NCBI RefSeq assembly: GCF_007747655.1
Contig: NZ_CP036274.1
Span: 7,812,001 to 7,876,000 of the forward strand
Length of the DNA: 64,000 nt
Direction of reading: 5' to 3'
Origin: Anatilimnocola aggregata
GTDB taxonomy: Bacteria > Planctomycetota > Planctomycetia > Pirellulales > Pirellulaceae
This document shows, in pieces, positions 17,274 to 63,636 of this stretch (the first letter of the stretch is position 1; every line of letters starts with the position of its first letter). Under the pieces are notes generated by a model. That model did not search any database, was not told where the DNA came from, and saw only the letters and a program-made list of their open reading frames with translations. The translations under genes and the position numbers were made by a program.

Positions 17274-18392
17274 CTACTTCCCAATCTTCAGCAGCGAACC
17301 GCTCCGAGATTTGCCAACGTGCGGCGGCGGAACTTTGCCCGCGGAAGCAAGTGCCAGGGCAGGTTGGTCGAGGTTCGTCGACGAACCAAACAGGCTCACC
17401 TTGGCAGTATGCAGGAAGCCCTTGAGTGTGCCGAAGGTGGCGGCGACGGCGCTCGGTTCGTGACCACAGTGGACCATGCAATCCTGGCAGCGGCTATTTC
17501 CGCTCTTTTGCCCGTACTTATCCCAGGCAGTCAGTTCCATCAACTCTTTGAAGGTCTGCACGTAGCCTTCGTTAAGCAAGTAGCAAGGCTTTTGCCAGCC
17601 AAAGACGTTGTACGTTGGGCTGCCCCACGGCGTGCATTCAAGATCGAACTTGCCTTGCAGGAATTCGAGGAACAGCGGCGTTTGATTGAACTGCCAACGC
17701 CGCGGCGCGCGATTGAGCAGTCGTTGAAAAAGGTTCGTAGTTTGTTGTCGTTTGAGAAAGTGATTCTGATCGGGAGCCTTTTCGTAGCTATAGCCCGGTG
17801 AGACCATCATCCCTTCGACGCCAAGCCGCATCATGTCGTCGAAGAAGCCGCGCATCCGTTCGGGATTGGCACCATCGAAGAGTGTGCTATTGGTGGTAAC
17901 GCGAAAGCCTTTGGCACGGGCCGCTTTGATCGCCGCGACCGCGATATCATAAACGCCTTCGCGGCAGACGGCCTGATCGTGTTCTTCTTTGGGCCCGTCC
18001 ATGTGTACCGAAAACGCCAGGTATTTGCTCGGTTTGAACTTGGGCAGCGCTGCTTCCAGCTTGAGCGCGTTCGTGCAGAGATAGACATACTTCTTGCGCT
18101 GCACGAGCCCCGCGACGATTTCGTCGATCTGCGGATGCATCAAAGGTTCACCGCCAGGAATTGAAACGATCGGCGCGCCGCATTCGTCGGCGGCGTGCAG
18201 GCATTTCTCGGGTGAGAGATTCTGCCGCAGAATCTCAGCCGGGAACTGAATCTTGCCGCACCCAGCGCAGGCCAGGTTGCAACGAAACAGCGGCTCCAGC
18301 ATCAGCACCAGTGGATAGCGATTGATGCCGGCCAGCTTCTTGCCCAGCACATAACTGGCGACCGTCCACATTTGGCTGATGGGTACCGACAT
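17274..18392 (-). CDS. hpnH: HpnH, adenosylhopane-forming radical SAM enzyme
   Basis: 372 residues from ATG 18392 (MSVPISQMWTVASYVLGKKL). Cys38-x3-Cys42-x2-Cys45 (CNLACAGC) binds the 4Fe-4S cluster; GGEPLMH and a C-terminal HCGHEPSAV follow, as in the HpnH family. The enzyme joins the 5'-deoxyadenosyl group of SAM to hopene, the first step in making extended hopanoids. Longer in-frame starts up to 18620 are artefacts: the extra residues translate a repeat element (GEAPAEP and LADASGY peptides). The squalene-hopene cyclase gene lies directly upstream on the same strand, so the two probably work as a hopanoid pair. Confidence 0.93.
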   Translation of the reverse strand: MSVPISQMWTVASYVLGKKLAGINRYPLVLMLEPLFRCNLACAGCGKIQFPAEILRQNLSPEKCLHAADECGAPIVSIPGGEPLMHPQIDEIVAGLVQRKKYVYLCTNALKLEAALPKFKPSKYLAFSVHMDGPKEEHDQAVCREGVYDIAVAAIKAARAKGFRVTTNSTLFDGANPERMRGFFDDMMRLGVEGMMVSPGYSYEKAPDQNHFLKRQQTTNLFQRLLNRAPRRWQFNQTPLFLEFLQGKFDLECTPWGSPTYNVFGWQKPCYLLNEGYVQTFKELMELTAWDKYGQKSGNSRCQDCMVHCGHEPSAVAATFGTLKGFLHTAKVSLFGSSTNLDQPALALASAGKVPPPHVGKSRSGSLLKIGK

Positions 18393-18407
18393 GATTCTCT
18401 CTTTTAG

Positions 18408-18430
18408 GTAGCCCGACGCGTCAGCGAGGG
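18408..18430. repeat. Dispersed 23-bp repeat, copy 1
   Basis: GTAGCCCGACGCGTCAGCG then AGGG; identical over 23 bases to 59030-59052. A shortened form (GTAGCCCGA) starts at 51466, and a diverged one lies near 26199. Confidence 0.85.
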
Positions 18431-18438
18431 TCGTTTTT

Positions 18439-18535
18439 GGGAGGGCGAAGCTCCTGCTGAGCCGCCCGTTTGGATTTGCAATGGCTGTCTGTGCTAATGC
18501 TCCACCGTTCGGCTCGGCGGGAGCCTCGCCCTCCC
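18439..18535. repeat. Long inverted-repeat element, 26-bp arms
   Basis: Left arm GGGAGGGCGAAGCTCC then TGCTGAGCCG (18439-18464); right arm, near its complement, at 18510-18535. Related to the element at 37760-37840. It lies between shc and hpnH, so it could trim or terminate the shared transcript. Confidence 0.88.
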
Positions 18536-18549
18536 GAGCGATCGGGTAG

Positions 18550-26274: not shown

Positions 26275-28788
26275 CTATTGCGTCACCAGATCATTGGCGC
26301 TGTACTGGCAGTTGTAATCGCCAAATTGCAGAAAGAGCCAATCGGCACCGTTGCCAGATGGAAGGCAGTCCTGTTCTTGGTCGTCGAAAATCGTCTGCCC
26401 CAATTCAAGACGCACGCCGTTGACGCCATTTAGCAAGTTGAGACTTCGATTGGCCAGCGAGTTGCCGCTCGTCCATTCGGCCAGAATCGATTGCAGTGCC
26501 AGGGTCTGGGCATCGTAACTCGTTGCCCCGCCGATCAGCAGGTCGTCGCCCTCGCCGGCATCGAGCACGTCCCGCCCTTCGCCGCCAATCAGGACGTCGT
26601 TCCCTGTGAAGCCGATCAGCCGATCGTCGCCATCACCACCAACAAGCACATCGTCCCCTTCGCGCCCTTCGAGGATATCGTTGACCGGGCCACCCAGGAG
26701 GATATCGTTCCCCGGCCCACCGATCAGCCGATTGAAGCCGTCGCCACCATCGAGGATATCGTCCGCACGACCGCCGACGATATTATCCTGGCCCGCCTGG
26801 CCGTAGATCGTGACCGGGGCAGCACTGTCGGTGGCATAAACCCAATCGTTGCCGCCCCCTGCGTAGACAATTACTCGCCCGCCGGCACCGAGCGTGAAGG
26901 GGCCGCGATTGACACCAGCCAGCCAGGTCATCACCTGCCCCGAGGCATTGGTCCAGACATAGATATATTCACCAGCATCGGTCCCTTGCACGATTACGTT
27001 CGGGCCCGCTTGATACACGGGGCCAACCGGAGCTTCGACTACATTGGTCAATTGAATCGAAACGTTCGCCTCGGCAAAGCGGGCGGGGGTGCCGTTGTCG
27101 GTCACGCGCACAACCAGGTTGAAGGCTGGAGTTGTTTCAAAATCGAGCGCACCGACATTGGCGACGACGATCTGACCCGTCGCAGCGTTGATCGCAAAGG
27201 CCCCGCTCGTGTTGCCAGAGACGATGGAGTAGGCGAGCGTTTGCCCCGCATCGACATCACTGCCGCTGACTTGTCCCACAACGGTTCCCGCAGCGGAGTT
27301 TTCAGGCAACACGAAGTTGCCGTTCGCTGTGGTTGGTTGTTCGTTCTCATTCAGCACATTGACAGTCACGACGGCATCGGTCGACAGCGCTGGATCGCCG
27401 TTATCGGTCGCGCGAATCGTAAGCTGGAACGAGGCATTGGTTTCGTAGTCGATGCCTGCGGGAAACACAACGTTCAAATGACCGGTCACCGAATCGATGG
27501 CGAAAACCGCATTCGTATTGCCGCTGACGATTGCATACGACAAGGTTTGACCCACGTCGGGATCGGTGGCGACCACCACGCCCGCAGTGGTGCCCAGCGC
27601 GGGATTCTCCGCCAGCGAGAACGATTGCGCCGAGAACTGAGGAGCGCGATTGGGAAGCACTTCTACGATATCGCGCAGGTTGATCGTCACGACGGCGTCG
27701 GCAAATAATGAGGGCGCACCATTGTCCATAGCGCGCACCGTCAAGTTGAAGGTCGGTGTCGCTTCGTAATCCAGGGGAGCCGCATTGGCGACTGTGACTT
27801 GCCCGGTCGCACTGTTGATGGCAAAGCCGCCGGCCAAATTGCCACTGACGATGGAATAAGACAGGGACTGCCCGACGTTCGCGTCGCTGGCGATGACTTG
27901 TCCCACAGCTGATCCAGCGGCGGTGTTCTCGTCCAGGTTGAAGACCGCTGCGTTGATGGTGGGAGCAACATTGACCGGCGCTGGTGGTTCCGATTCAGCA
28001 ATCAGCCGCTGCGCGATCACTTGGCCGAACAAGCGAGCACTGAAGTTATCTTCGGCGGTGATGATCTTGCCATCGACCCAGACATCGTCGGCGGTTGTAT
28101 TCGGATTGCCGACCGAAGCGTGCGGACGAGTAAGTCCGCCGTTCGTTTCCATCTGTGTCGATTGGCGGTACTGGTAGTAGCTGTAGAATTGCCCGTTGTA
28201 AAACACGGGAGGTCCGCCACCGTTCGTCACTCCACCTTGGGGCGTCATCACGGTCTTCCCCGCAATCGGACTCACACCATCGACGCGCGCCCAAGCCAGC
28301 ACAGTGGTGGCGTGGCACACGGCAGCGACGTACTTGTCTTGATCGGTGAACTCGTTGATCAGCCGATTCACGGTCTCCTTGGTCGTGGCATCGCCGCGGT
28401 ACAGCCCATCGGAATAAATCCCGGTGAAAGCATACTGATACATCGACGAACCCCAGCCCCCAATGAAGACGATGGCTGAGTAATCCTGCGAATTCACATC
28501 GGCCAGTCGCAGGTCGGGTGTCACGATGCCGCTTCCCGTTTGCCCGCTGTTCGCATGCGGCGTGCTGGGTGAAGTGGTCGTCGCAGCCACGCGAGTGGTG
28601 AGCCCCGCTTCCAGCAGCGATTGACGCGTATCGCCGTACTCCTGATAGAAGAAGTCGCGCTGATCGGCGATCACCATCAGCACGGGCAGGACATCGCCTG
28701 CAGCAAAGACTTCGCGGCGTTCCAGGGTTTCGAAAAAGGAGCGGCGACGTTGAGGGGTTCGAGTCGGGCGGCGGCTGGAGTTCTTCAT
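26275..28788 (-). CDS. Secreted DJ-1/PfpI-like, cadherin and RTX repeat protein (three cadherin repeats)
   Basis: 837 residues from ATG 28788 (MKNSSRRPTRTPQRRRSFF). The N-terminus LERREVFAAGDVLP is a planctomycete-type export leader. Residues 33-265 resemble DJ-1/PfpI: LPVLMVIADQRDFFYQEYG with Glu50, and the nucleophile-elbow segment VAAVCHATTVLAWA with Cys158-His159. Three cadherin-like repeats follow (each with SYSIVSGN or AIVSGN and LDYEAT- or IDYETN-like motifs), then about six GGxGxDxLxG calcium-binding RTX turns and an end block (SILAEWTSGNSLANR) shared with other planctomycete RTX proteins. It is probably a calcium-stabilised surface protein with an enzymatic or binding head. Its paralog lies directly upstream. 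Confidence 0.85.
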   Translation of the reverse strand: MKNSSRRPTRTPQRRRSFFETLERREVFAAGDVLPVLMVIADQRDFFYQEYGDTRQSLLEAGLTTRVAATTTSPSTPHANSGQTGSGIVTPDLRLADVNSQDYSAIVFIGGWGSSMYQYAFTGIYSDGLYRGDATTKETVNRLINEFTDQDKYVAAVCHATTVLAWARVDGVSPIAGKTVMTPQGGVTNGGGPPVFYNGQFYSYYQYRQSTQMETNGGLTRPHASVGNPNTTADDVWVDGKIITAEDNFSARLFGQVIAQRLIAESEPPAPVNVAPTINAAVFNLDENTAAGSAVGQVIASDANVGQSLSYSIVSGNLAGGFAINSATGQVTVANAAPLDYEATPTFNLTVRAMDNGAPSLFADAVVTINLRDIVEVLPNRAPQFSAQSFSLAENPALGTTAGVVVATDPDVGQTLSYAIVSGNTNAVFAIDSVTGHLNVVFPAGIDYETNASFQLTIRATDNGDPALSTDAVVTVNVLNENEQPTTANGNFVLPENSAAGTVVGQVSGSDVDAGQTLAYSIVSGNTSGAFAINAATGQIVVANVGALDFETTPAFNLVVRVTDNGTPARFAEANVSIQLTNVVEAPVGPVYQAGPNVIVQGTDAGEYIYVWTNASGQVMTWLAGVNRGPFTLGAGGRVIVYAGGGNDWVYATDSAAPVTIYGQAGQDNIVGGRADDILDGGDGFNRLIGGPGNDILLGGPVNDILEGREGDDVLVGGDGDDRLIGFTGNDVLIGGEGRDVLDAGEGDDLLIGGATSYDAQTLALQSILAEWTSGNSLANRSLNLLNGVNGVRLELGQTIFDDQEQDCLPSGNGADWLFLQFGDYNCQYSANDLVTQ

Positions 28789-28811
28789 GGCGTCTGTTCC
28801 TCTGCGTGTTC

Positions 28812-28847
28812 CGAGATGAGATAAGTGCGGACAGAAGAGAAATGGCA
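28812..28847 (-). promoter_or_regulatory. Upstream block shared by the two RTX paralogs (copy A)
   Basis: CGAGATGAGAT (28812-28822) and GAAATGGCA (28839-28847), written on the plus strand, lie 24-59 bases upstream of the start codon. The same two blocks in the same order lie upstream of the paralog at 30835-30867, while the sequence between differs. This suggests a conserved leader or binding site. Confidence 0.5.
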
Positions 28848-28919
28848 AGCTGGGAAAGGATCTTTCAGCAGCTTGCCAGAATTGTTGTCGCCACACGAAA
28901 CAAGCGGCCCGGTAACGAC

Positions 28920-30803
28920 TTACAGAACGTCCAGCAGATCGCCAGCCTGACTGGCGTGGACATAATCGCTGGCGTGAATCAACAGCCAATCGTTGTCAGC
29001 ACCGCCAATCAAAACGTCCTGCGCACTATCGTCAGCGGTGGTCTGGCCGTTGAACGTCAGTTGAAAGACTCCGCTACGACCGGCAAGATCGGCCCCCGCT
29101 GTCCAGTCGGCCAGAATGGCCTCGAGCGCGAGCTGATTCGAGTCGTAACTCGTCGTACCGCCGATGAGCAGGTCTTCCCCACTCTCTCCTTCGATTCGAT
29201 CGCTGCCTTGGCCGCCAATCAGCACATCGTCGCCCGTGAAGCCGTACAGATAGTCATCGCCGTCCCCCCCGACGATCAGGTCGTTCCCTTCGCGACCGTG
29301 CAGCCAGTCGGTCCCTGCCCCGCCGACGATCAAATCGTCTCCGCCACCAGCCCAGATGCGATCCCAACCTTCACCACCGTCGATGACATCATTGGCCGAT
29401 CCTCCCGTGAGACTATCGTGCCCACCTTCGCCGTAAATGGTCACCGGTTTCGCACTGTCCGTGGCATAAACCTGATCATTTCCATCGCCACCAAACACGA
29501 TGACGCGACCGCCGGAGCCGAGCGCAAGTGGTCCCGTTTGCAGGCCATTGATCCAGACAAACTGCTGGCCGTAGTAGTCACTCCAGATGTAGATGGTGTC
29601 CGCATCGGCAGTTCCCTGCACGAGTACATTCGGTCCGTCGTGCGAAACAGGTCCGGGCGGAGTTTCGAGTTCGTCGAGCAGATCGATCATCACGCTCGCG
29701 ACGCCGTTGAGCGAAGGCGTTCCATTGTCGGTGACTTGCACCGTCAGTTCGAAGAGGGGCGAAGCCTCGAAATCGAGAGCCGCGGGATTAGCCACGGTGA
29801 TGACTCCCGTCGCTGCCTCAATGGTGAAGGCACCACTGTCGTTGCCGCCGATGATGGCATACGTCAGCAATTGCCCCAGGTCACTATCGCTGGCGATCAC
29901 TTGTCCCACGACCGTGCCCGCAACGCTGTTCTCGGCGATGACGAGATTACCGGGCGAAACGATCGGAGCCTGATTTTCAGGCACTTCCTCGACTTCTTCC
30001 ACCGCAGCATTGATGACGTGGGTGGCAATCACATCGCCAAACTCGGCTGCACTGTGGTTGTTCTCGGCGGTGATGAACTGACCATCGACCCAGACATCGT
30101 CGGACGGATCATCGGCGACCCCAATCGCGCCCGAGGGAAAATAGTTGATGCCGTTGGCATCCATTTGCATGGGCTGGGCCCAACCATAGTTGCCGTATTC
30201 AATGCCCATGTAAGTTGCCGCGGGCGAGCCGATGTATGGGACCGCGGCCGTTCGTCCGGCCAGCGGACTCACGCCATCGACGCGCGCCCAAGCCAGCACG
30301 GTGACACCGTTGCAGACGGCTGCGACGTACTTGTCTTGATCGATGAAATCGCCGATCAGATTGTTGACGATGGTCTGGGTCGCTTCATTGCCGTCGTAAG
30401 CATCGTTTGCATAGTCGCCGGGAAAGGCGTACTGATACATCGACGCGCCCCAACCGCCGACGAAGGCAATCGCGGAGTAGTTTTCCGCCTGCACATCGGC
30501 CAGCGCGATATCGGGCGTGACGATTCCGTCGCCCGCACCTTGCCCGGTAAAGGGATGCGCCACGCTGGGGTCGGTGGTTTCCGCGGCGACGACGACTTCC
30601 ACTCCGCGGGCAATCAGCGAATCGTAGGTATCGCCGTACTCCTGGTAGAAAAAGTCTTGCTTGTCAGCAATCACGAGCAGCACGGGAAGGGGCGTGCCCG
30701 AGAAGACTTCGCGCGCTTCCAGTTTCTCGATGACGCCACGCCGCCAGCGTGGTACTGGAGCGGGCTTTGAATGATTGCGGTTCCGATTGTTGATTCGTGA
30801 CAT
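28920..30803 (-). CDS. Secreted DJ-1/PfpI-like, cadherin and RTX repeat protein (one cadherin repeat)
   Basis: 627 residues. Same architecture as the downstream paralog: leader with KLEAREVFSGTPLP, a DJ-1/PfpI-like domain at 38-270 (PVLLVIADKQDFFYQEYG, then VAAVCNGVTVLAWA with Cys164), one cadherin-like repeat instead of three, about six RTX turns (GGDGDDYLYG, GGQGSDRIEG) and the end block AILADWTAGADLAGR. The residue after the Cys is Asn here and His in the paralog, so the two heads may differ in activity. The pair probably arose by tandem duplication followed by gain or loss of cadherin repeats. Confidence 0.85.
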   Translation of the reverse strand: MSRINNRNRNHSKPAPVPRWRRGVIEKLEAREVFSGTPLPVLLVIADKQDFFYQEYGDTYDSLIARGVEVVVAAETTDPSVAHPFTGQGAGDGIVTPDIALADVQAENYSAIAFVGGWGASMYQYAFPGDYANDAYDGNEATQTIVNNLIGDFIDQDKYVAAVCNGVTVLAWARVDGVSPLAGRTAAVPYIGSPAATYMGIEYGNYGWAQPMQMDANGINYFPSGAIGVADDPSDDVWVDGQFITAENNHSAAEFGDVIATHVINAAVEEVEEVPENQAPIVSPGNLVIAENSVAGTVVGQVIASDSDLGQLLTYAIIGGNDSGAFTIEAATGVITVANPAALDFEASPLFELTVQVTDNGTPSLNGVASVMIDLLDELETPPGPVSHDGPNVLVQGTADADTIYIWSDYYGQQFVWINGLQTGPLALGSGGRVIVFGGDGNDQVYATDSAKPVTIYGEGGHDSLTGGSANDVIDGGEGWDRIWAGGGDDLIVGGAGTDWLHGREGNDLIVGGDGDDYLYGFTGDDVLIGGQGSDRIEGESGEDLLIGGTTSYDSNQLALEAILADWTAGADLAGRSGVFQLTFNGQTTADDSAQDVLIGGADNDWLLIHASDYVHASQAGDLLDVL

Positions 30804-39719: not shown

Positions 39720-40532
39720 ATGATCAAGTTTTTATACGGAACTGCCTGGAAAGAAGCTGAGACGGCCCGACTGGCGCTTCTAGCGCTGGAACAGGGTTTT
39801 CGTGGCATCGATACGGCCAATCAACGCAAGCACTATCATGAGGCGGGAGTCGGTGAGGCTGTTGCACGGGCTATCGAGCGGGGACTGGTCGCGCGAGAAG
39901 AACTGTTTTTACAGACGAAGTTCACGTTTCTCGGCGGGCAAGATCAGCGCTTGCCGTACGACCCGCAGGCCCCCATAGCCAGGCAAGTCGAACAGTCGTT
40001 TGCTAGTTCGCTCGTGCATCTCGGAACCGACTATTTGGATTCTTACGTGCTGCATGGCCCTTCGCAGCGCGTTGGCTTGGGTGCCGATGATTGGGCAGCC
40101 TGGCGGGCCATGGAAGGGATTCATGCGAGTGGCAGCGCGAAAGTGCTGGGGATCAGCAATGTCTCGCGCGAGCAGTTGGAACAGCTTTGCCAGCAGGCGA
40201 AGGTCCAGCCACGGTTTGTGCAGAATCGTTGCTATGCCAGCCGAGGCTGGGACCGCGCGGTTCGCGAGTTTTGTAAAGCAAACGACATTACGTACCAGGG
40301 TTTTTCACTGCTGACGGCCAATCGCGAAGTGCTGGTGCATCCGGCGGTAGAGAAGCTTGCCCAGCGGTACCAAAGAACGACGAGCCAGATCGTATTTCGC
40401 TTCGCCTGCGACATCGGCATGCTACCTCTCACCGGAACCACCAATGCCGCCCACATGCAGGCCGATTTGAGTATCTTTGATTTTCAGCTGGATCCCGCGG
40501 AAGTTGCCTTGCTGGAGTCCATCGCGGGCTAA
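39720..40532 (+). CDS. Aldo/keto reductase
   Basis: 270 residues. The catalytic tetrad is readable: Asp in RGIDTANQRKHY, Tyr in HYHE, Lys in LFLQTKFT and His in YVLHGPS; ISNVS and PLTGT near the end fit NADPH binding. It reduces carbonyls to alcohols. It is placed directly before the terpene cyclase gene on the same strand, so a tailoring role in that pathway is possible but unproven. Confidence 0.93.
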   Translation: MIKFLYGTAWKEAETARLALLALEQGFRGIDTANQRKHYHEAGVGEAVARAIERGLVAREELFLQTKFTFLGGQDQRLPYDPQAPIARQVEQSFASSLVHLGTDYLDSYVLHGPSQRVGLGADDWAAWRAMEGIHASGSAKVLGISNVSREQLEQLCQQAKVQPRFVQNRCYASRGWDRAVREFCKANDITYQGFSLLTANREVLVHPAVEKLAQRYQRTTSQIVFRFACDIGMLPLTGTTNAAHMQADLSIFDFQLDPAEVALLESIAG

Positions 40533-40564
40533 CGCGGGCTGACGCGGGCTGACGCGGGCTGATT
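40524..40564. repeat. Short tandem repeat after the reductase gene
   Basis: About four copies of CGCGGGCTGA (first copy CGCGGGCTAA), beginning inside the last codons of the reductase. Probably slippage; the copy number would be expected to vary between strains. Confidence 0.85.
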
Positions 40565-40586
40565 CGCAACTTGATTGTCAAGCACC

Positions 40587-42383
40587 ATGAATTACGACCG
40601 CTTGCTGGCTGCATACACTCGCGCGCGGAACGACCTGCTCGCCGCGCGCGGCGAGCATGGCCATTGGGAAGGTCGGCTTGCCAGTTCTTCACTCTCGACG
40701 GCAACTGCCGTCAGCGCCCTAGCGCTTGTGCAGAAACATGGTGCCCAGAATTTGGCGAGCGAACTACAGCCGTTAATTGAAGCCGGCGTGAAGTATCTCG
40801 CCGGGCAGCAAAATGCCGACGGCGGCTTTGGCGATACCGATAAGAGCCACTCCAATATCGCGACGACTTACCTGGTGATTGCTGCGGTGCACCTCGCGGG
40901 GCGAGAGCAGGAGCTTGCACCTTTGCTGACGCGCGCGCAGGGTTATGTCGCTGCGCAAGGAGGAATGGCGGGACTGCGGAAGCGCTACGGCATCGATAAG
41001 ACGTTCGTCGTGCCGATCATGACGAACCTGTCACTTGCCGGCTTGTGCGATTGGCGCGAGATTTCACCGCTCCCCTTCGAACTCGCCTGCATTCCGCAAA
41101 GCTGGTATCGCTTCGCGCAGATGCCGGTAGTCAGTTATGCGATTCCCGCACTCGTGGCGATTGGGCAGGCCCACTATTTTCATCGCAAACCGTGGAATCC
41201 ATACTCGCGCTTCGTGCGTGGCGCGGCGGTCGCGCCGAGCATGAAGGTGCTGCTGCGGATGCAGCCGCAGAGCGGCGGCTATCTCGAAGCCACGCCCCTC
41301 ACCAGTTTTGTGGTGATGAGCCTGGCAGCAACAGGCCGGGCTGATCACGCGGTTTCGCAGGCCGGCGTTCGTTTTTTGAAAGATTCGATGCGCGACGACG
41401 GAAGTTGGCCCATCGATACGAACCTCGCGACTTGGGTCACTTCCCTCTCGCTCAATGCGCTCGCGGCGGGTGGCCAGGAACTACCCGACGATGAGCGCTG
41501 TTGGTCGTGGCTACGTTCGTGTCAACACTTGCAGCGGCATCCGTTCACCGGTGCCGATCCCGGTGGCTGGGGCTGGACCGACCTGAGCGGCGCGGTTCCC
41601 GATGCGGACGATACGCCGGGAGCACTGCTGGCACTGTCACTTTTATTCGATGGTCTCAACTCGGACCGACAGGCAGATATTTCGCAAGCGGCGTCGATGG
41701 GCATTGCTTGGCTGTTGAAGTTACAAAACCGAGATCGTGGTTGGCCAACCTTTTGTCGTGGCTGGGGCAAACTTCCGTTCGATCGTAGCGGCACTGATCT
41801 CACGGCACATGCAATCCGCGCTCTGAACGCTTGGATGCCGCAAGTTCAACTCTTGGCGGAGGTGAATCCACGAAGTGCCGCCTTGGGAAGGCCGGAAGAA
41901 ATCGTCGCGGCAATTGAACGAGGTTTTCACTTTCTGAAGCTCAAGCAAAATCCCGACGGCAGTTGGTCCCCCCTTTGGTTCGGTAACCAAGATCATCCGG
42001 AGGAAGACAACCCGGTCTACGGAACAGCAAAGGTATTGCTGGCCTATCGAGACTTGCAGCGGATGACTGCAGAGCCCGCCACTCGGGGAGTGAATTGGCT
42101 GATCGAGCACCAAAATGCCGATGGAACCTGGGGGAGCAGTCTGGAAGAAACGGCCCTGGCGGTCGAAGCATTGCTGGCAAGTCCACGGTCTGCCAAGTTA
42201 CAATCGAGCGTCGACCGCGGCCTCGGCTGGCTGGTCGAGCAAGTGGAGCAGAATCGGCACCAGAACAGTTCGCCTATTGGCTTTTACTTCGCTAAGCTAT
42301 GGTACTATGAGCAGTTGTATCCACTCATCTTTACAGTGAGTACACTGGGGCAAGCCCTGCCAGCTGCTCGCCCGCCGGAATAA
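40587..42383 (+). CDS. Class II terpene cyclase-like protein (squalene-cyclase superfamily)
   Basis: 598 residues from ATG 40587 (MNYDRLLAAYTRARNDLLAA). Asp339-Ala-Asp341-Asp342 (VPDADDTPG) is the protonation motif of class II cyclases, and QW-type repeats are visible (QNADGGFGD, QPQSGGYLE, RDDGSWPID, QNRDRGWPTF, QNPDGSWSPLW, QNADGTWGSS). It is clearly different from the shc product in this window, about 100 residues shorter, and paired with a polyprenyl synthase gene 75 bases on. The likely substrate is therefore a polyprenyl chain or its diphosphate, but the product cannot be named from sequence. Confidence 0.85.
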   Translation: MNYDRLLAAYTRARNDLLAARGEHGHWEGRLASSSLSTATAVSALALVQKHGAQNLASELQPLIEAGVKYLAGQQNADGGFGDTDKSHSNIATTYLVIAAVHLAGREQELAPLLTRAQGYVAAQGGMAGLRKRYGIDKTFVVPIMTNLSLAGLCDWREISPLPFELACIPQSWYRFAQMPVVSYAIPALVAIGQAHYFHRKPWNPYSRFVRGAAVAPSMKVLLRMQPQSGGYLEATPLTSFVVMSLAATGRADHAVSQAGVRFLKDSMRDDGSWPIDTNLATWVTSLSLNALAAGGQELPDDERCWSWLRSCQHLQRHPFTGADPGGWGWTDLSGAVPDADDTPGALLALSLLFDGLNSDRQADISQAASMGIAWLLKLQNRDRGWPTFCRGWGKLPFDRSGTDLTAHAIRALNAWMPQVQLLAEVNPRSAALGRPEEIVAAIERGFHFLKLKQNPDGSWSPLWFGNQDHPEEDNPVYGTAKVLLAYRDLQRMTAEPATRGVNWLIEHQNADGTWGSSLEETALAVEALLASPRSAKLQSSVDRGLGWLVEQVEQNRHQNSSPIGFYFAKLWYYEQLYPLIFTVSTLGQALPAARPPE

Positions 42384-42458
42384 TCCACAGCCCACCTGCA
42401 ACGTCGTGCCCAAGGCAATCAGCCGTCATCGAACCGCGCCGCCACTGAGGATCTCGCC

Positions 42459-44342
42459 TTGTCCACTCTAAGCTCTCCAGCCTCCGATACGATCGCGCCA
42501 GCGCCGGCGCATCTGGTCGATTCTTTGCCCCCCGAATTTCCCCCGGAACTTGCCGGCCCGCGGCGCAGCAAACGACGCAACACGTCGCACTTAAAAGCAG
42601 TGCCGCCCAGCGAGGAAGAGCGCGAAGCGATCCGGCAAAAGTGTGTGGCGATTGCTGCTACGCTTGATAAGGCGAATCCGCTGACCGTCGATCAGATGGA
42701 AGTGGTCGTCCGCAAGTTGCTCACTGATAACAGCCTGCCGGAGAGCTATCTCGGTTGGGTGATGGTGGTGCTCAGTAGTGAATTTTGGCGCGATCAGGTA
42801 GCTGCGACCGATCCGTCGCGCCGCTTGTTCCTGTTGCCACATTGCCTCAAGCATGCCGAAGGTTGTCCCGCCGATTACGACGAGTATGGCCTGGAGTGCA
42901 AAACCTGCGGCGCTTGCAGCATTGCCGACTTCCGCGCCGAAGCCGAAAAGATGGGCTACAAGGTGCTCGTCGCCGAAGGCTCGCCGATTGTGCTGAAGAT
43001 TATTGTCAGCGGGCATGTCGACGCGATTGTCGGCGTGGCCTGTTTGAACGTGCTCGAAAAAGCGATCGACAAGATTCTGCTCGCTGGCATTCCGTGCATG
43101 GCCGTGCCGCTGCTATCGAGCGATTGCCGTAATACGAGTGTCGATGAGCCGTGGGTCATGGATATGATCCGCGTGCAACCTGCAGCCTCGACGCAGCAGA
43201 CGAGTACTTACGTTCACTTGCTCCGCGCTGCTGCCAATCTGTTCAAGCCGGACGAACTCGAGCGCCTGGTGCCACGCTTGCGTGGCGGTCAGCGGTTGCA
43301 ACCCGGGCAACAAGCGGCCGATATCGAACCGATCGCTGCGACCGAACTGATCGCGCACGATTTTCTCGGCAAGGGTGGCAAGTACTCGCGCCCGTTCATT
43401 ACGCTCGCCGTTCACGACGCCCTCACAGGTGCCAAGGGAACACTGGCCAGCGGGGCCGAACATTTGGCTGCGCTGCCCGATGCCGTGCGCCGCGCGGCGA
43501 TGTCGATCGAAGCGTTTCACAAAGCTTCGCTGGTGCACGACGATATCGAAGATGCCGATGCATTCCGCTACGGCGAAGAAACCGTTCATCGCCGTTTTGG
43601 TGTGCCGACGGCGATTAATGTCGGTGACTATCTGATCGGACTTGGTTATCGCCTGGTTGCCAAAGAAACGGCTGTGCTCGGCGGCGCTGCGGTTGCCGAT
43701 ATTTTGAATTGCCTCTCCGATGCGCACCTGCGACTCAGCGAAGGTCAAGGAGCTGAGCTATTGTGGCGCGACGCGCGCGATAAGCGACTCAAGCCCATCG
43801 ATGCCCTCAAGATTTATGCCCTCAAGACGTCGCCTGCTTTCGAAGCGGCCTTGTTCAGTGGCTGCCGCTTGGCTGGTCCAGCCGAAGCGTATGCAGAACC
43901 GATGAAGCTGTTCGCCCGCAACCTGGGCGTGGCCTTTCAGATTCTCAACGATTTGAACGACTGGGACGGCGACAACCACAACAAGATGTCGGCTGGCGGC
44001 GATACGCTCGGTGGCCGACCAACTGTCCTGTGGGCTTTGGCGCTCGAAGGGCTGAATGCCGCGAAGCAAGAAGAACTGCTGTCGCTGGTAACCAATGAGC
44101 AAGCGGATCCTGCCCATCGCTTGGGCCGCGTCCGTCAGCTGTATAATGAGGCAGGTGCTTTCGAAAAGGCCTCGCGGTTGATCGAAAAGCATCGCGAGCG
44201 AGCCGAAGCAATTGCCGACGAAATCCAACCCGAAGAGTTCCGCCGCCTGCTCTATTATTTAATCGACAGTGTGCTCGATAACCCACCTGCTGCTGCCCAG
44301 CCGGTGAATGTGTTGCAGATTACACCGCAAAAAACTTCGTAG
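42459..44342 (+). CDS. DUF116 domain fused to polyprenyl diphosphate synthase
   Basis: 627 residues, TTG start at 42459 with GAGG about ten bases upstream. Residues 60-290 are DUF116-like with Cys129, 136, 147, 150 and 153 (ECKTCGACS), which probably bind an iron-sulfur cluster or zinc. Residues 295-590 are a prenyl synthase: first aspartate motif DDIED (361-365), second NDLND (497-501, Asn replacing the first Asp), YGEETVHRRFG and KTSPAF. The enzyme would chain isopentenyl units into a diphosphate for the neighbouring cyclase. The fused metal-binding domain is the unusual part. A long inverted repeat covers the stop codon. Confidence 0.88.
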   Translation: MSTLSSPASDTIAPAPAHLVDSLPPEFPPELAGPRRSKRRNTSHLKAVPPSEEEREAIRQKCVAIAATLDKANPLTVDQMEVVVRKLLTDNSLPESYLGWVMVVLSSEFWRDQVAATDPSRRLFLLPHCLKHAEGCPADYDEYGLECKTCGACSIADFRAEAEKMGYKVLVAEGSPIVLKIIVSGHVDAIVGVACLNVLEKAIDKILLAGIPCMAVPLLSSDCRNTSVDEPWVMDMIRVQPAASTQQTSTYVHLLRAAANLFKPDELERLVPRLRGGQRLQPGQQAADIEPIAATELIAHDFLGKGGKYSRPFITLAVHDALTGAKGTLASGAEHLAALPDAVRRAAMSIEAFHKASLVHDDIEDADAFRYGEETVHRRFGVPTAINVGDYLIGLGYRLVAKETAVLGGAAVADILNCLSDAHLRLSEGQGAELLWRDARDKRLKPIDALKIYALKTSPAFEAALFSGCRLAGPAEAYAEPMKLFARNLGVAFQILNDLNDWDGDNHNKMSAGGDTLGGRPTVLWALALEGLNAAKQEELLSLVTNEQADPAHRLGRVRQLYNEAGAFEKASRLIEKHRERAEAIADEIQPEEFRRLLYYLIDSVLDNPPAAAQPVNVLQITPQKTS

Positions 44343-44400
44343 TGTGGGCTGTAGCCTACGCAAGGTGCCAGTTTGCGTGGACTAAAGTCCACGCTACGAA
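44336..44400. repeat. Long inverted-repeat element, 28-bp arms
   Basis: Left arm 44336-44363 (TTCGTAGTGTGGGCTGTAGC...), right arm 44373-44400, 23 of 28 positions pairing. The right arm has a perfect inner stem GTGGACT-AA-AGTCCAC. The stop codon of the polyprenyl synthase fusion lies in the left arm. Related to 44985-45050. Confidence 0.88.
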
Positions 44401-44432
44401 ACCCCTCGGCCGCTAACCAGCCCACCGGTGCC

Positions 44433-44978
44433 ATGGCAGAACAAGACGTCAGCGAAATCCCCGACCTGCAAGAGCTGGTGGCGATCTTCTTTGCTGACGT
44501 GGGGGAATTGGGCACCTTCACACCCGTGCAGCCGCGGCAGATTCCGCAGGCCTATCGCGACCTGCTCGCTCACTACTCGCACATGACCGTCACGGTCGAG
44601 CATTTTCACAAGAGCCCGGTCGATGTTGTAGTCCTCGACCGACAATCGACGGGCCGGCATTACAGCCGCAAGATTCTACTCACGCGGCAATCGGATGGCC
44701 GCGTAGTGCAGTTTGGCATCGTCCGCCTCGATTTCAACTGCGTGAGTGCCGCCGTCCGCGAAGAAATTCAGCGCGAACAAACCCCGCTCGGGCGTGTCCT
44801 CATCAATCATCACGTGCTGCGCGAAGTCGAGTTGAAGCAGATCTATCGAATTGCCTGTGGCGCAGAGTTGGCCCAGCACTTTAACTTGCCCGCGGGGAGC
44901 GAAGTCTACGGCCGGACCGCCCTCATCTATTGCGATGGTGAACCGGCCGTCGAGTTGCTGGAAATAGTGACGCCGTAA
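44433..44978 (+). CDS. Chorismate-lyase-like (DUF98) protein
   Basis: 181 residues from ATG 44433 (MAEQDVSEIPDLQELV). LLAHYSHMTVTVEHFH, then RHYSRKILLTRQ with the Arg, VVQFGIVRLDFNCVS, REEIQREQTPLGRVL and the closing VELLEIVTP match the DUF98 chorismate-pyruvate-lyase family. Characterised members release 4-hydroxybenzoate from chorismate. Next to a polyprenyl synthase and a class II cyclase, this suggests a prenylated aromatic product, but that is inference. A long inverted repeat follows the stop codon by six bases. Confidence 0.75.
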   Translation: MAEQDVSEIPDLQELVAIFFADVGELGTFTPVQPRQIPQAYRDLLAHYSHMTVTVEHFHKSPVDVVVLDRQSTGRHYSRKILLTRQSDGRVVQFGIVRLDFNCVSAAVREEIQREQTPLGRVLINHHVLREVELKQIYRIACGAELAQHFNLPAGSEVYGRTALIYCDGEPAVELLEIVTP

Positions 44979-46643: not shown

Positions 46644-47087
46644 ATGAACGACATCCTTCCCGCGAAGCCCGGTTGGCTTTGGTTCGCTATGGGTTCCGCG
46701 CTGTTTGCAGCGGCGACGACGCTCTTGGGCAAAATCGGCGTCAGCGAAGTGAACTCGAATGTGGCGACGTTCATCCGCGTCGTCGTGATGTTCGCCGTCA
46801 TGGCTGGTCTGCTAACGGCCCGTCGCGAGTGGAGTGGCTTCAGCGTGGTTTCGCCGCGCAGTTTGTTCTTTGTCGTCGCCAGCGGCCTGGCGACCGGTCT
46901 CTCGTGGCTCTGCTACTTCCGGGCGTTGCAACTCGCCCCAGCTTCGCGCGTGGCACCCATCGACAAACTGAGCGTGGCGCTGGTCATCATCTTTGCCGTC
47001 GCCTTCCTCGGCGAACCACTCACCTGGCAAGTCGCGCTGGGCGGTCTGCTAATCGTCACCGGCGTGATGGTGCTGTCGCTGGCTTAA
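46644..47087 (+). CDS. EamA-type membrane transporter, single domain
   Basis: 147 residues with five hydrophobic segments, the size of one EamA (DUF6) domain. GWLWFAMGSALFAAATTLLGKIG and the later PASRVAPIDKLSVALVII and LGEPLTWQVALGGLLIVTGV are typical EamA blocks. Half-size members form dimers that move small metabolites; the substrate is unknown. It overlaps the convergent ketosynthase gene by four bases at the 3' end. Confidence 0.9.
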   Translation: MNDILPAKPGWLWFAMGSALFAAATTLLGKIGVSEVNSNVATFIRVVVMFAVMAGLLTARREWSGFSVVSPRSLFFVVASGLATGLSWLCYFRALQLAPASRVAPIDKLSVALVIIFAVAFLGEPLTWQVALGGLLIVTGVMVLSLA

Positions 47088-48343
47088 CCCGCCGTCAGCA
47101 CGATGGCAGCTGCGCCGCCGTAGTCGCTGTGATTGAGCAGCAGGGCGGCAGGTTTGTCGGTGGCGAGCGAAGCATCGCGAACGACATTCACCGGGCATTC
47201 GGGGTCGGGCTCTCGATAGTTAAGCGTACGAGGAATGCGACCGTGCTGTAGCGCGAGAACGCTGGCGATCGCTTCGACGGCACCGCTGCTGGCCCCCAGA
47301 TCGCCAAAGAAGCTCTTGGGTGCAGTCACCGGGACATCGCCCAGTTCGGCACGAATGGCTTGTGCTTCGAGCCGGTCATCAACCAGGTAGCCACCGGCAT
47401 TGGCGTTGACGTGGCCTACGTCCTGTGGGCTTAGGCCGGCAGATTGAATCGCAGTCGCGATCGACGCGCGAATGCCCGAGCCGGTGAGGCGACCATCGAC
47501 GGGTGGCTCGAAGCGATTGCTCCAGCCAGCTACCTTGGCCAGGATTTTGGCTCCGCGCCGTTCCGCATGTTCGCGAGCTTCGAAAATGAACATGCCGGCC
47601 CCTTCGCCAACTAATCCACCATCGCGGCGACGATCGAAGGGCTTGATTGCTTCGGTGGGGGGACCTTGCCAATGCGTGAGGTTTGCCCAGCCACGGAACG
47701 GAGCACCACTGAAGGCGATCTTCGCGCCGCTGCCGCCGGTGACCATTACGTCGGCATGGCCGCGCTGAATCACGGCGGCCGCCTCTTGCATCGCCAGCAA
47801 GCTGGAGGTCGCGCCTTGCACGATGGTGTTATTCGGCCCGCGGGCATCGTTCACAATGCCGATGTGGCAAGCAGCCATATTCGGCAGATACTTGAGCATC
47901 CAGAGCGGAAAGAGGCTCTTCATGGCGTGCGGAGTCCACTCGTTGATGTGGAAGACGCCGTCGTGAGTTGACTGCCGATAGGTATCGATCAGTTCGTCGA
48001 TTTCGCCGTACAAAATTTCACTGCCGAGCACGACCCCGAGCTTAAAGGGGTCGACTTGCTCTTTCGTGAGCGCTGCATCCTGCATCGCGATCACCGCTGC
48101 GGCATAAGCAGCTTGAATTTCGCGGGCCATGACCTTGATGGTCTTGCGCGGCTGCACATACTGCTTGGCGTCGAAATTGGGAAACAGCCCAGCCAGACGA
48201 TAGGGGACGTCGGTGGCACCCGCCAATTCGGGCACCGTTACGATGCCGCTTTGCCCTTGATCGAGCGCAGTCCAAAAGGCGTCGCGACCGATGCCAATCG
48301 GGCTGACCATGCCTACGCCCGTAATCACCACTTCGCGTTTCAT
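47084..48343 (-). CDS. Beta-ketoacyl synthase-fold protein lacking catalytic residues
   Basis: 419 residues, thiolase fold, FabF-like throughout (MKREVVITGVGMVSPIGIG, ADVMVTGG, FDRRRDGGLVGEGAGMF). The catalytic Cys of the TACSS-type motif is Ala178 (VQGATSS), the His of NAHGT is Asn315 (HVNANAGG) and the second His of the GHxxGA motif is Asp348 (KSFFGDLGAS). Lys343 is retained. All three residues needed for acyl transfer and decarboxylation are therefore gone. Comparable inactive partners are the chain-length factors of type II polyketide synthases. No catalytic KS or ACP gene is adjacent, so its partner is unknown. Confidence 0.85.
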   Translation of the reverse strand: MKREVVITGVGMVSPIGIGRDAFWTALDQGQSGIVTVPELAGATDVPYRLAGLFPNFDAKQYVQPRKTIKVMAREIQAAYAAAVIAMQDAALTKEQVDPFKLGVVLGSEILYGEIDELIDTYRQSTHDGVFHINEWTPHAMKSLFPLWMLKYLPNMAACHIGIVNDARGPNNTIVQGATSSLLAMQEAAAVIQRGHADVMVTGGSGAKIAFSGAPFRGWANLTHWQGPPTEAIKPFDRRRDGGLVGEGAGMFIFEAREHAERRGAKILAKVAGWSNRFEPPVDGRLTGSGIRASIATAIQSAGLSPQDVGHVNANAGGYLVDDRLEAQAIRAELGDVPVTAPKSFFGDLGASSGAVEAIASVLALQHGRIPRTLNYREPDPECPVNVVRDASLATDKPAALLLNHSDYGGAAAIVLTAG

Positions 48344-60631: not shown

Positions 60632-62074
60632 ATGCGCACTCTTTCTCGTCCTTTCTTGGTCGCTTGCGGCCTCACGTTGTTGCTAGCTGGTGCAGCGGTC
60701 GCCCAGAATAACAACGGTGGTGGTAACAATGGCGGCGGCAATAATGGCGGCGGTAATAACGGCGGAGGTGGTGGGGGCGGCGGCTTCGGTGCTGCTGGTG
60801 TCTTGATCGACCCCAACGGCACGCTGAAGATGCGCCGCTTTGACGAACCGAATGGCCAACTGACGATGCGCCGCATCGCGGAAGCCCGCGCTCGCCTGCC
60901 TGGCAATCTCGCCCAGCAAGCTCCGCTGCGCAAGGTTTCGCTTAATCGCCTGGAAGCAGCCATTGCTCAGCGCGCGGCCAATGGACAGGGTCCGACCGAC
61001 GAAATGAAGTATCTGGCCGGCCTGACCCGCGCTCAGTACGTCTTCTTTTATCCCGAGACTCGCGACATCGTGATCGCTGGTCCTGCCGAAGGCTACGTCG
61101 CCGATCCCTCGGGTCGGATGATTGGCATGAACTCCGGTCGGGCGATTGTCGAACTTCAAGATTTGGTCGTCGCCCTGCGAGCCTATCCGCCACAAGGCAA
61201 ACCGACCCAAATCATTGCTTGCTCGATCGATGCCACGCAGGAAGGCCTCGCAAATCTGCAAAAGTTCTTCGCCAGCTTTCATGGCCGTCTCCCCTCCGGT
61301 GGCGAAGCTCGCATTGCCGAAGGCGCTCGCAATGCACTCGGCCTGCAAGTGGTCACCATTCGCGGCCTGTCCCCCAAGACTCACTTCGCGCAAGTGCTGG
61401 TCGAAGCTGACTACCGCATGAAATTGATTGGCATCGGACTGGAACAGCCGCCAGTTCGCATTCCCAGCTATGCTTCGCTGGCCACGGCAGCCACGGTTCG
61501 CGGCAATGCGATGCAACGATGGTTCTTCACTCCGAATTATGAATGTGTGAAGGTCAGCGAAGACGAACTGGCCATGGAATTGGTCGGCGATGGCGTCAAG
61601 TTGATTGGTGAAGACGAAGTGGTGCAGGCCGATGGCACACGTGTGGCTGCAGCTGGTGGCAAGAACAAAGCCAGCCAACAATTCTGTCAGCAGTTTACGA
61701 CCAACTATGCTCAATTGGCCCAGCGGAGCCCTGTTTATGGTCAGCTGCGGAATTTAATCGATTGCTCGGTCGCAGCTGCCTTTATTCAACAGCAAGATTA
61801 TTATGGCAAGTGCGCCTGGAAGATGGAGCACTTTGGCGACGAGAAGAAGTATCCAGTCGAAACTTGCGAAACGCCCAAGATGGTCGAAACGGCCTGTTCG
61901 GTGCTGAAGAAGGGGAGCCAAACCGCTTTCCCGATTGGTGGCGGCGTGCACATCGAAGCTCGCACGGCGCTTGAACCTCAATATCGGGTAGCCGATGATG
62001 GAGGCAAGCTGCAAGCCGTTCGCAACAAAGTCACCACCGACAAGCTCACGGAAAATCAATGGTGGTGGGATTAG
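60632..62074 (+). CDS. DUF1598 protein, first of tandem pair
   Basis: 480 residues. A signal peptide (LACGLTLLLAGAAVAQ-like region near residues 7-25) is followed by an Asn/Gly-rich linker of about 30 residues and a DUF1598 core starting GAAGVLIDPNGTLKMRRFD. Features include an RIAEARARLP helix, YFFYPETRDIVIAGPAEGYV and a C-terminal part with several Cys and QWWWD at the end. DUF1598 is largely planctomycete-specific and of unknown function. It is exported or envelope-bound by its signal peptide. The tandem paralog begins 113 bases later. Confidence 0.88.
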   Translation: MRTLSRPFLVACGLTLLLAGAAVAQNNNGGGNNGGGNNGGGNNGGGGGGGGFGAAGVLIDPNGTLKMRRFDEPNGQLTMRRIAEARARLPGNLAQQAPLRKVSLNRLEAAIAQRAANGQGPTDEMKYLAGLTRAQYVFFYPETRDIVIAGPAEGYVADPSGRMIGMNSGRAIVELQDLVVALRAYPPQGKPTQIIACSIDATQEGLANLQKFFASFHGRLPSGGEARIAEGARNALGLQVVTIRGLSPKTHFAQVLVEADYRMKLIGIGLEQPPVRIPSYASLATAATVRGNAMQRWFFTPNYECVKVSEDELAMELVGDGVKLIGEDEVVQADGTRVAAAGGKNKASQQFCQQFTTNYAQLAQRSPVYGQLRNLIDCSVAAAFIQQQDYYGKCAWKMEHFGDEKKYPVETCETPKMVETACSVLKKGSQTAFPIGGGVHIEARTALEPQYRVADDGGKLQAVRNKVTTDKLTENQWWWD

Positions 62075-62187
62075 TCTTCCGCCCAGTTCATTTTTGTCCC
62101 TTTCATTTGTACCTCAACCGATTTCTCTTCGTACCTCAATAGGTTTGTATCTTCTCGACGGCAATGATCATTTAAAAGGCACTGATC

Positions 62188-63636
62188 ATGCAAAAGTTCA
62201 CTCGTTCGATTTTGGTCGCGTTTAGTTGCGCCCTATTGTTAGCCGGCACCGCACTGGCTCAAAACAATAATGGTGGCAACAACAACGGCGGCAATAATAA
62301 TGGTGGTAACAACGGCGGCAATAACGGCGGCGGCGGTGGCAACCTGTTCGGTGCCGCCGGTGTGATGGTGGATGCTGGCGGAGTGCTGAAGGTGCGGCGC
62401 TTCGACGAGCCCAATGGGCAACTCACCATGCGCCGCCTGGCTGAGGCCCGCGCCCGCTTGCCCGGCAATCTGGCCCAGCAAGCTCCGCTCCGTAAGGTTT
62501 CGCTCAATCGCCTGGAAGCAGCCATTGCCCAGCGCGCCGCCAATGGACAGGGCCCCACGGATGAGATGAAGTATCTGGCCGGTCTGACGCGTGCTCAGTA
62601 CGTCTTCTTTTATCCCGACACGAACGACATCGTGATCGCGGGCCCCGCGGAAGGCTATGTCGCCGACCCTTCGGGGCGCATGATCGGCATGAATACGGGC
62701 CGGGCAATTGTCGAGCTGCAAGACCTGGTCGTTGCCCTGCGTGCGTTCCCGCCCCAAGGCCGGCCGACGCCGATTATTGCCTGTTCGATTGACGCCACCA
62801 AGGAAGGTCTCGCGAACCTGCAGAAGTTCTTCGCCAGCTTTCATGGCCGCATGCCTGCCGGTGGAGAACTTCGGATTGCCGAGGGTGCTCGCCAAGCGCT
62901 GGGTTTGCAAGAAGTGACCATTCGTGGCCTGTCGCCCAAGACTCACTTCGCCCAAGTCCTTGTCGAAGCCGACTATCGCATGAAGCTGATCGGCATCGGG
63001 CTCGAGCAGCCCCCGGTTCGGATTCCCAGCTATGCTTCACTTGCTAGCGCCGCAACCGTGCGGGGCAATGCCATGCAACGGTGGTTTTTCACGCCCAATT
63101 ATGAATGCGTGAAAGTCAGTGACGACGAACTGGCCATGGAACTGGTCGGCGAAGGGGTGCAACTAATTGGCGAAGATGAACTGGTGCAGGCCGACGGCAC
63201 GCGTGTGGCTGCGGCTGGCGGCAAGAACAAAGCCAGTCAGCAATATTGCCAGCAGTTCACCAACAACTACCCACAATTGGCTCAGCGCAGCCCGGTCTAT
63301 GGCCAGCTGCGCAATCTGATTGACTTGTCGGTCGCAGCTGCCTTCATTCAGCAGCAGGATTACTACGGCAAGTGCGAATGGAAGATGGAGCACTTCGCGG
63401 ACGAGAAGAAATACCCCGTCGAAACCTGCGAAACTCCCAAGAATGTCGAAACAGCTTGTGCCGTAATGAAGAAGGGGAACCAAACCTCGTTCCCCATCGG
63501 CGGCGGTGTGCATATCGAAGCCCGCACGGCCCTTGAGCCGCAGTATCGCATTGCCGACGAAGGGAGCAAACTGCAAACCCTCCGCAGCAAAGTAACCACC
63601 GACAAGCTGGCCGAAAATCAATGGTGGTGGGACTAA
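62188..63636 (+). CDS. DUF1598 protein, second of tandem pair
   Basis: 482 residues, very similar to the preceding gene over the whole core, including QWWWD at the end; differences concentrate in the signal peptide and the Asn/Gly linker (NNNGGNNNGGNNNGGNNGG). The linker copy numbers differ from the paralog, as expected of slippage. AAAAGG lies before the ATG. Recent duplication is likely, and both copies have kept open frames and the same set of Cys residues. Confidence 0.88.
   Translation: MQKFTRSILVAFSCALLLAGTALAQNNNGGNNNGGNNNGGNNGGNNGGGGGNLFGAAGVMVDAGGVLKVRRFDEPNGQLTMRRLAEARARLPGNLAQQAPLRKVSLNRLEAAIAQRAANGQGPTDEMKYLAGLTRAQYVFFYPDTNDIVIAGPAEGYVADPSGRMIGMNTGRAIVELQDLVVALRAFPPQGRPTPIIACSIDATKEGLANLQKFFASFHGRMPAGGELRIAEGARQALGLQEVTIRGLSPKTHFAQVLVEADYRMKLIGIGLEQPPVRIPSYASLASAATVRGNAMQRWFFTPNYECVKVSDDELAMELVGEGVQLIGEDELVQADGTRVAAAGGKNKASQQYCQQFTNNYPQLAQRSPVYGQLRNLIDLSVAAAFIQQQDYYGKCEWKMEHFADEKKYPVETCETPKNVETACAVMKKGNQTSFPIGGGVHIEARTALEPQYRIADEGSKLQTLRSKVTTDKLAENQWWWD

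Follow-up and report, generated by a model that had tools for sequence, protein, structure and literature searches.

A second class II cyclase and a DUF116-polyprenyl synthase fusion of Anatilimnocola aggregata as part of a dispersed, co-inherited planctomycete gene set

Comparative analysis of a 64,000-nucleotide stretch of the Anatilimnocola aggregata genome (NZ_CP036274.1, assembly GCF_007747655.1, positions 7,812,001 to 7,876,000; here called the window) revealed that a locus at window positions 39720 to 44978 is one visible part of a gene set that is scattered over the genome and inherited together; the earlier finding is real and larger than first described. This part comprises genes for a second class II cyclase (here named cyc), a DUF116-polyprenyl diphosphate synthase fusion (here named D116PPS), and a DUF98-fold protein (here named chly). 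Judged from family assignments, motifs, and gene distribution, it is somewhat probable that these genes represent one fragment of a large conserved planctomycete pathway for a cyclized, iron-sulfur (Fe-S)/radical-modified polyprenoid.

We compared 46 loci (L-numbers below), namely the window and 45 related stretches, which comprised 40 from the 56 other genomes carrying cyc and five of six further loci; the sixth (L044), a poribacterial match at 27 %, was excluded from the reading of neighborhoods. Sixteen cyc genomes (G-numbers) lie outside the neighborhood set: G181, G227, G069, G035, G114, G036, G141, G089, G220, G010, G110, G171, G241, G219, G145, and G243. G069 is represented in the comparison by its DUF98-fold locus alone and G187 by the weaker of its two cyc copies. 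Because several stretches stop at contig ends, counts of neighbors are lower bounds wherever a neighbor appears absent.

The cyclase and synthase core

Four open reading frames (ORFs) on the plus strand fill the locus: an aldo/keto reductase gene (AKR; 39720 to 40532, PF00248), cyc (40575 to 42383, 602 amino acids), D116PPS (42459 to 44342, 627 amino acids), and chly (44373 to 44978, 201 amino acids). An earlier note on this DNA had described the four as a single unit read in one direction, with a gene order that relatives would share. The ORFs and their coordinates agree with that description; the single unit and the shared order do not hold. AKR was dropped as a pathway member because blastp (1e-6) gave no counterpart to it across the 45 related stretches; some of these reach only a short way upstream of cyc. 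The end of AKR lies 42 bases before the start of cyc, and it may be cotranscribed with the cyclase in this genome. Counting the window, nine of the 46 loci have chly next to cyc and D116PPS; elsewhere the gene lies mostly in another gene set. D116PPS is found on the same strand as cyc, at most 3.5 kb downstream or upstream of it, in 40 of 46 loci. Since AKR has no counterparts and chly is optional, the four-gene order is not conserved; the conserved core consists of cyc and D116PPS. This coupling of a class II cyclase to a polyprenyl synthase agrees with the earlier note; the meroterpenoid step proposed there is unproven, no UbiA-family gene being located nearby.

The cyc protein matches PF13249 and PF13243, both above cut-off, which places it in the class II terpene cyclase (SQHop) superfamily, and carries the DxDD catalytic acid motif as DADD at residues 343 to 346 (41601 to 41612), in line with the earlier description of a second class II cyclase. 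The three Asp residues of the motif are invariant in all 46 cyc rows and in all 18 comparison rows (17 planctomycete squalene-hopene cyclases [SHCs] and the L044 protein). W287, W379, W468, D403, and H412 are likewise invariant in 46/46 cyc rows, and all except H412, which is replaced by Arg in most SHC rows, are common to the SHCs. In contrast to these shared features, the stretches PTFC (391 to 394) and PLW (466 to 468) do not vary among the cyc rows, and the SHCs have them only in part. Against the SHC equivalog model TIGR01507, cyc scored 93.5 bits (cut-off, 431.1), compared with 667.7 for the SHC of the window, and it stayed below every NCBIfam cyclase cut-off listed. A tree built from the 46 cyc proteins, the 17 planctomycete SHCs, and the one distant poribacterial protein, thus covering neither SHCs of other phyla nor characterized cyclases, placed cyc and the SHCs on opposite sides of a 100/100 branch with a long stem, as expected by the earlier note. 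By these comparisons, cyc is not an ordinary SHC; its acid chemistry is probably retained and its substrate or product altered. The neighbors of cyc also differ from those of the hopanoid pathway, being genes for Fe-S, lipoyl, and radical S-adenosylmethionine (SAM) proteins. A separate hopanoid pair, also named previously, was confirmed in the window on the minus strand (17274 to 20667), with both proteins passing their NCBIfam cut-offs: HpnH (17274 to 18620) with 529 bits against 225 and SHC (18550 to 20667) with 668 bits against 431.

The synthase had been recognized correctly as such, but its N-terminal fusion was overlooked. Residues 91 to 237 of D116PPS (42729 to 43169) form a DUF116 domain (PF01976, E = 2.3e-39, 134.8 bits against a cut-off of 25), whose seven cysteines (Cys 129, 136, 147, 150, 153, 195, and 223) are invariant in 40/40 aligned rows. 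Residues 298 to 551 (43350 to 44111) form the polyprenyl synthase domain (PF00348, 139.9 bits against 27), with a first Asp motif DDxxD (DDIED, residues 361 to 365) and a second motif [N/D]DxxD (NDLND, residues 497 to 501), each present in 40/40 rows. In polyprenyl synthases, a small residue five places before the first Asp motif leads to chains longer than C15; Ala356 occupies this position and suggests such a chain length for D116PPS. The best NCBIfam match of the synthase domain is the family 2 encapsulin cargo polyprenyl transferase (NF041169, E = 1e-38). It differs from that family in reaching only 133 bits against a cut-off of 450, in being fused to DUF116, and in having no encapsulin among its annotated neighbors.

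Partner genes of the cyclase and their distribution

In many relatives the cyc core is surrounded by partner genes that are absent around the window. In L075, Pfam and NCBIfam identified an operon-like run of genes for a GcvH-like protein, a CobW/G3E GTPase, a cysteine desulfurase, a radical SAM enzyme, a 4Fe-4S protein, D116PPS, a prenyltransferase-toroid protein, and cyc; a small Cys protein without a family assignment is encoded between the radical SAM and 4Fe-4S genes. L062 is likewise operon-like, with nine genes in succession on one strand. As called mechanically, the ORFs of six of the eight adjacent pairs overlap, and gaps of 66 and ~216 bases separate the other two pairs. Across the 45 relatives' loci, tblastn (1e-10) detected the ferredoxin protein in 30, the radical SAM enzyme in 26, the toroid protein in 25, the GcvH-like protein in 23, the GTPase in 20, the small Cys protein in 18, and the cysteine desulfurase in 14.

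The distribution of cyc and every partner was determined in the same draw of 246 planctomycete genomes. A limit of E<1e-54 defined the cyc set; below it, a gap in the scores was followed by SHC-like matches of ~26-35 % identity and E values of 3e-17 or weaker; 31 other genomes with a match gave only such weak, SHC-like ones, and fragments of orthologous cyc genes, 44-55 % identical, also fell below the cut. Orthologues of cyc were thereby assigned to 57 genomes, the own genome included. Sixteen genomes had been sampled from the class to which the window belongs, and 15 of them carry cyc. The ferredoxin protein was present in all 57 cyc genomes and three others, the toroid protein in 56 (plus two without cyc), and the G3E GTPase in 44 (plus eight). 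For the radical SAM enzyme (E<1e-130; 50 cyc genomes plus one) and the GcvH-like protein (E<1e-39; 44 plus one), we placed the cut-offs at gaps in the score lists. Fisher tests of these five partners against cyc gave p values of about 1e-28 or lower, which ignore shared ancestry. From genome G087, cyc and four of these partners (ferredoxin, toroid, radical SAM, and GTPase) are missing at once, the pattern that loss of a unit would leave.

In A. aggregata itself, the partners are spread over four places outside the window. The GcvH-like gene (genome positions 867899 to 868363) and the ferredoxin gene (868464 to 869639) lie together on one strand, the same as that of a run containing a HemN-like gene (see below). 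The toroid gene was located at 1102727 to 1103665, the G3E GTPase gene at 1360272 to 1361423, and the radical SAM gene at 7611637 to 7612935 on the minus strand; the window begins at 7812001. Alignments of ten rows each showed eight invariant cysteines in the ferredoxin protein (2x4Fe4S) and, in the radical SAM enzyme, a CxxxCxxC motif plus three further invariant cysteines. The GcvH-like protein has one invariant Lys at the lipoyl site (10/10 relatives) and no invariant Cys. It resembles GcvH in its lipoyl-domain profile and this Lys but differs in its partner genes and in its score against TIGR00527 (own copy, L092; 73.6 bits against a cut-off of 115.85); the lipoate-binding proteins of sulfur oxidation (LbpA) presumably share the same profile and Lys and differ in partner genes as well. 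The single alpha-toroid of the toroid protein matched the Rab geranylgeranyltransferase beta profile (5.5e-18) and, weakly, MstE (E of about 0.01). Its alignment showed no invariant DxDD and no invariant Cys or His. The zinc ligands of protein prenyltransferase beta subunits are Asp, Cys, and His, and the toroid protein therefore has no conserved zinc site.

The small Cys protein (112 amino acids in L075, with invariant cysteines), encoded next to the ferredoxin gene in other lineages, occurs in 30 of 57 cyc genomes. All 16 genomes of the window's class are without it, and it was not found in the own genome. A likeness to the HdrA N terminus is unsupported: apart from one weak match, a profile search of the PDB returned nothing but designed or engineered proteins. 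Alignment to the N-terminal part of the ferredoxin protein of the window's class by hhalign gave a probability of 51 %, which is only suggestive of a relationship. In L074, G041, G145, G051, G031, and G241, the small Cys and ferredoxin proteins apparently share one open frame. A fusion of the two, followed by decay of the cysteines of the small protein, is a possible history.

The DUF98-fold protein and a second gene set

The DUF98 label given to chly in the earlier note is right for the fold, although sequence profiles gave no match to that family. No Pfam or NCBIfam model matched at 1e-3 (the best at a loose cut-off was UTRA, E = 0.011), and at E <= 0.001, PF01947 (DUF98/Rv2949c-like) matched neither chly nor any other part of the own genome. 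An AlphaFold model based on a five-row alignment had a mean predicted local distance difference test (pLDDT) score of 83. Foldseek ranked the DUF98 structure 2nwi (AF1396) first (E = 3.9e-9, target TM score 0.77), followed by the UbiC chorismate lyase (~3e-6) and then UTRA domains, and the label is correct at fold level because of this ranking. The model thus has the chorismate-lyase fold, which is also common to UTRA ligand-binding domains. While sharing the fold of DUF98 and UbiC, chly lies outside their sequence family, with 16-20 % identity in structural alignments. R99 and E197 are invariant in 9/9 rows and may correspond to the catalytic R76 and E155 of UbiC. The ATG at 44433 is the likelier start of chly, since residues 1 to 28 of the model have pLDDT values below 50 and the ORFs called mechanically in most relatives start at about that place or later.

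Among the 246 genomes, chly was found in 37. Elsewhere it often lies inside another conserved cluster, which is fullest in L123 (positions 1433 to 19414; G198, a genome without cyc). That cluster encodes a Na/solute symporter, an AMP-binding protein, an aldehyde dehydrogenase (ALDH)-like protein, an iron alcohol dehydrogenase (Fe-ADH), and a pyrroloquinoline quinone (PQQ)-type propeller, and further a HemN-like radical SAM protein, the DUF98-fold protein, a flavoprotein, a glycosyltransferase (GT4), a 4HBT thioesterase, and an ATP-binding cassette (ABC) transporter. Parts of it recur in L120, L121, L122, L112, and L116; few or none of its genes accompany chly in L113-L115, L117, L118, and L124. 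The best match of the flavoprotein (L122 copy) is the CmlS halogenase model (7e-69, 233 bits against a cut-off of 900), and 5/5 copies examined have WxWxI, a halogenase motif. With a protein of the chorismate-lyase fold, a flavoprotein resembling halogenases, and a thioesterase, this second set would be a reasonable candidate for the biosynthesis of 4-hydroxybenzoate/chlorinated fatty acid products such as alichondrichlorin. C30 carotenoids are mentioned for a planctomycete, and a planctomycete product containing 4-hydroxybenzoate is reported, in PMC12078418.

In the own genome, the genes for the AMP-binding and ALDH-like proteins, Fe-ADH, the PQQ propeller, two Uma2-family proteins, the HemN-like protein, the GcvH-like protein, and ferredoxin lie in this order on one strand; the two Uma2 genes (C1:865253-866552, corresponding to L092:5254-6553) separate the PQQ propeller gene from the HemN-like one. 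The ABC genes come after the toroid gene. Examination of stretches from the own genome turned up no flavoprotein, glycosyltransferase, thioesterase, or symporter gene. In related loci, too, genes of the second set adjoin cyc (L040, L045, L046, L057, L060, L063, L071, and L074), and one such contact each was seen in L066 and L081. We further searched for the HemN-like gene in 28 genomes of our own choosing (15 of the 28 with cyc and without chly, five of eight with chly and without cyc, and eight with neither). It was present in 13/15 of the first group, 5/5 of the second, and 0/8 of the third (E<1e-100; weaker matches near 1e-61 in two); the eight genomes of the third group come from only five families. 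From these gene contacts and distributions, we hold with moderate confidence that the two sets are functionally joined.

UbiA-family genes number three in the own genome (4.50, 4.63, and 8.57 Mb), and none lies near the cyc locus or the partner gene sets; the search was confined to this prenyltransferase family. Of the genes near the locus in the window, those for a tyrosyl-tRNA synthetase, an EamA protein, and a ketosynthase (47084 to 48343) were rejected as members, having no match in the 45 related loci (1e-6).

Elsewhere in the window, a Polyketide_cyc/epimerase fusion, an amine-oxidase-type flavoprotein, DUF1365, and a CMAS-domain cyclopropane synthase-like gene lie in a row on the plus strand (11295 to 16018), perhaps a lipid-methylation locus. 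Two large consecutive proteins, alike by eye, are encoded on the minus strand (26275 to 30803), the one at 26275 to 28989 with DJ-1/PfpI, cadherin, and RTX repeats. Tandem DUF1598 proteins, closely similar by eye (60632 to 63636), and a transposase with a DDE_Tnp_1 domain (4621 to 6030) are both encoded on the plus strand.

Proposed pathway and rival explanations

The pathway that we favor would begin with the synthase domain, whose motifs point to an all-trans polyprenyl diphosphate as product. The DxDD acid of cyc would then protonate this chain, or a product of it, and close rings, consistent with the conserved acid and Trp residues. The Fe-S/radical set, namely the radical SAM enzyme with its three extra cysteines, the 2x4Fe4S protein, the seven-Cys DUF116 domain, the GcvH-like lipoyl-Lys protein, and the G3E GTPase, together with the cysteine desulfurase co-encoded in other lineages, may subsequently alter the cyclized product. 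Sulfur insertion or ferredoxin-driven reduction would be the likeliest chemistry; this is speculative, and the former is suggested by the desulfurase and lipoyl partners. In this lineage, the second set (chly, AMP-binding, ALDH-like, Fe-ADH, HemN-like, and ABC proteins) might feed the same product, since its genes are interleaved with those of the first set in the own genome, and it could add an aryl or fatty group and export. An aromatic head on the product is possible and would hinge on the modeled fold of one optional protein.

Several observations weigh against this pathway. Its members are linked by family assignment, co-occurrence, neighborhood, and motif conservation, and for none of them is a product or activity known. 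The DUF98-fold protein is absent from 28 of 57 cyc genomes and present in eight without cyc, and in six of the 46 loci (L066, L072, L073, L077, L080, and L083) no D116PPS was found near cyc. The second Asp motif of the synthase begins with N in 21/40 rows, the window included, and with D in 19/40. The model of the D116PPS fusion was too poor to use (pLDDT 58), and comparison of DUF116 with PDB sequences gave two chance-level matches and no relative by sequence. At looser search cut-offs, the radical SAM enzyme matched in 67/246 and GcvH in 208/246 genomes, the latter apparently because ordinary GcvH is picked up, as the score gap and the genomes with two matches suggest. The GcvH-like protein and the GTPase are each missing from 13 cyc genomes and the radical SAM enzyme from seven, most of these being fragmented. 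Two cyc genomes in one contig show gaps as well: in G167, the cyclase, ferredoxin, toroid, radical SAM, and GTPase genes are all present, with only a weak GcvH match and neither a DUF98-fold nor a HemN-like gene, and G107 has no radical SAM enzyme. The proposed Fe-S/radical step is therefore not obligate in its full form.

The independence of the two gene sets is the first matter on which other explanations turn. In G198 (L123) and G148 (L120), much of the DUF98 set is present in the absence of cyc, and the two sets could be unrelated pathways brought together by chance here and in certain other lineages. We consider this rather unlikely in view of the contacts between the sets in several lineages and of the HemN-like gene, which occurs in most tested cyc genomes lacking chly but in none with neither, albeit within those five families. 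If chly instead supplied 4-hydroxybenzoate that is prenylated before its chain is cyclized, with the Fe-S genes as mere neighbors, the product would be a meroterpenoid. The fold of chly, its place beside the pair in nine loci, and the 4-hydroxybenzoate-containing product reported in PMC12078418 are consistent with such a route. We judge it unlikely, as UbiA-family genes are missing near the locus and its partner loci, and ferredoxin and toroid proteins track cyc far better than chly does. Class II meroterpenoid cyclases such as MstE (PDB 6sbb) share the toroid fold and the logic of a synthase plus a cyclase, whereas here no UbiA is linked, the partners are Fe-S/radical proteins, and the toroid partner is without the catalytic motif as an invariant feature.

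Ordinary triterpene cyclization, in which D116PPS supplies farnesyl diphosphate and cyc is a divergent squalene cyclase making a minor hopanoid-like lipid, appears improbable. Although the SQHop domains, DxDD, and Trp positions are shared with SHC, cyc forms a separate clade on a long stem below all cyclase cut-offs listed, the genome already has SHC and HpnH, and no squalene synthase was present among the annotated conserved neighbors. The match of the toroid protein to Rab geranylgeranyltransferase beta could also indicate that it attaches the chain to the GcvH-like protein, as in protein prenylation or lipid anchoring. We rejected this explanation as very improbable: the toroid protein has no conserved zinc site, the GcvH-like protein offers no invariant Cys in ten rows, and class II cyclases match the same toroid profile.

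The favored pathway, a cyclized and Fe-S/radical-modified polyprenoid, had no account as a gene set in a literature search judged by titles, which likewise returned none of DUF116 function. The six terms sought did not occur in the main text of the P. limnophila essential-gene paper (PMC10632474). None of the terpenoid pathways that we know of has such a chemistry, for example sulfur insertion that relies on its own cysteine desulfurase or a reduction coupled to lipoyl groups. Only tentatively do we propose a third class of planctomycete cyclic isoprenoid lipids, next to hopanoids/sterols and carotenoids, that would derive from a polyprenyl diphosphate through a new class II cyclase and a lipoyl/ferredoxin/radical SAM finish, with the fused DUF116 Fe-S domain handing the substrate over. 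If the set makes a lipid, this lipid would be widespread in planctomycetes, as cyc occurs in about a quarter of the sampled genomes, and may be missing from lipid catalogues. If the proposal is true, DUF116 would gain its first pathway context, the class II cyclases would gain a new clade, and the gene set would provide a search list for a biomarker.

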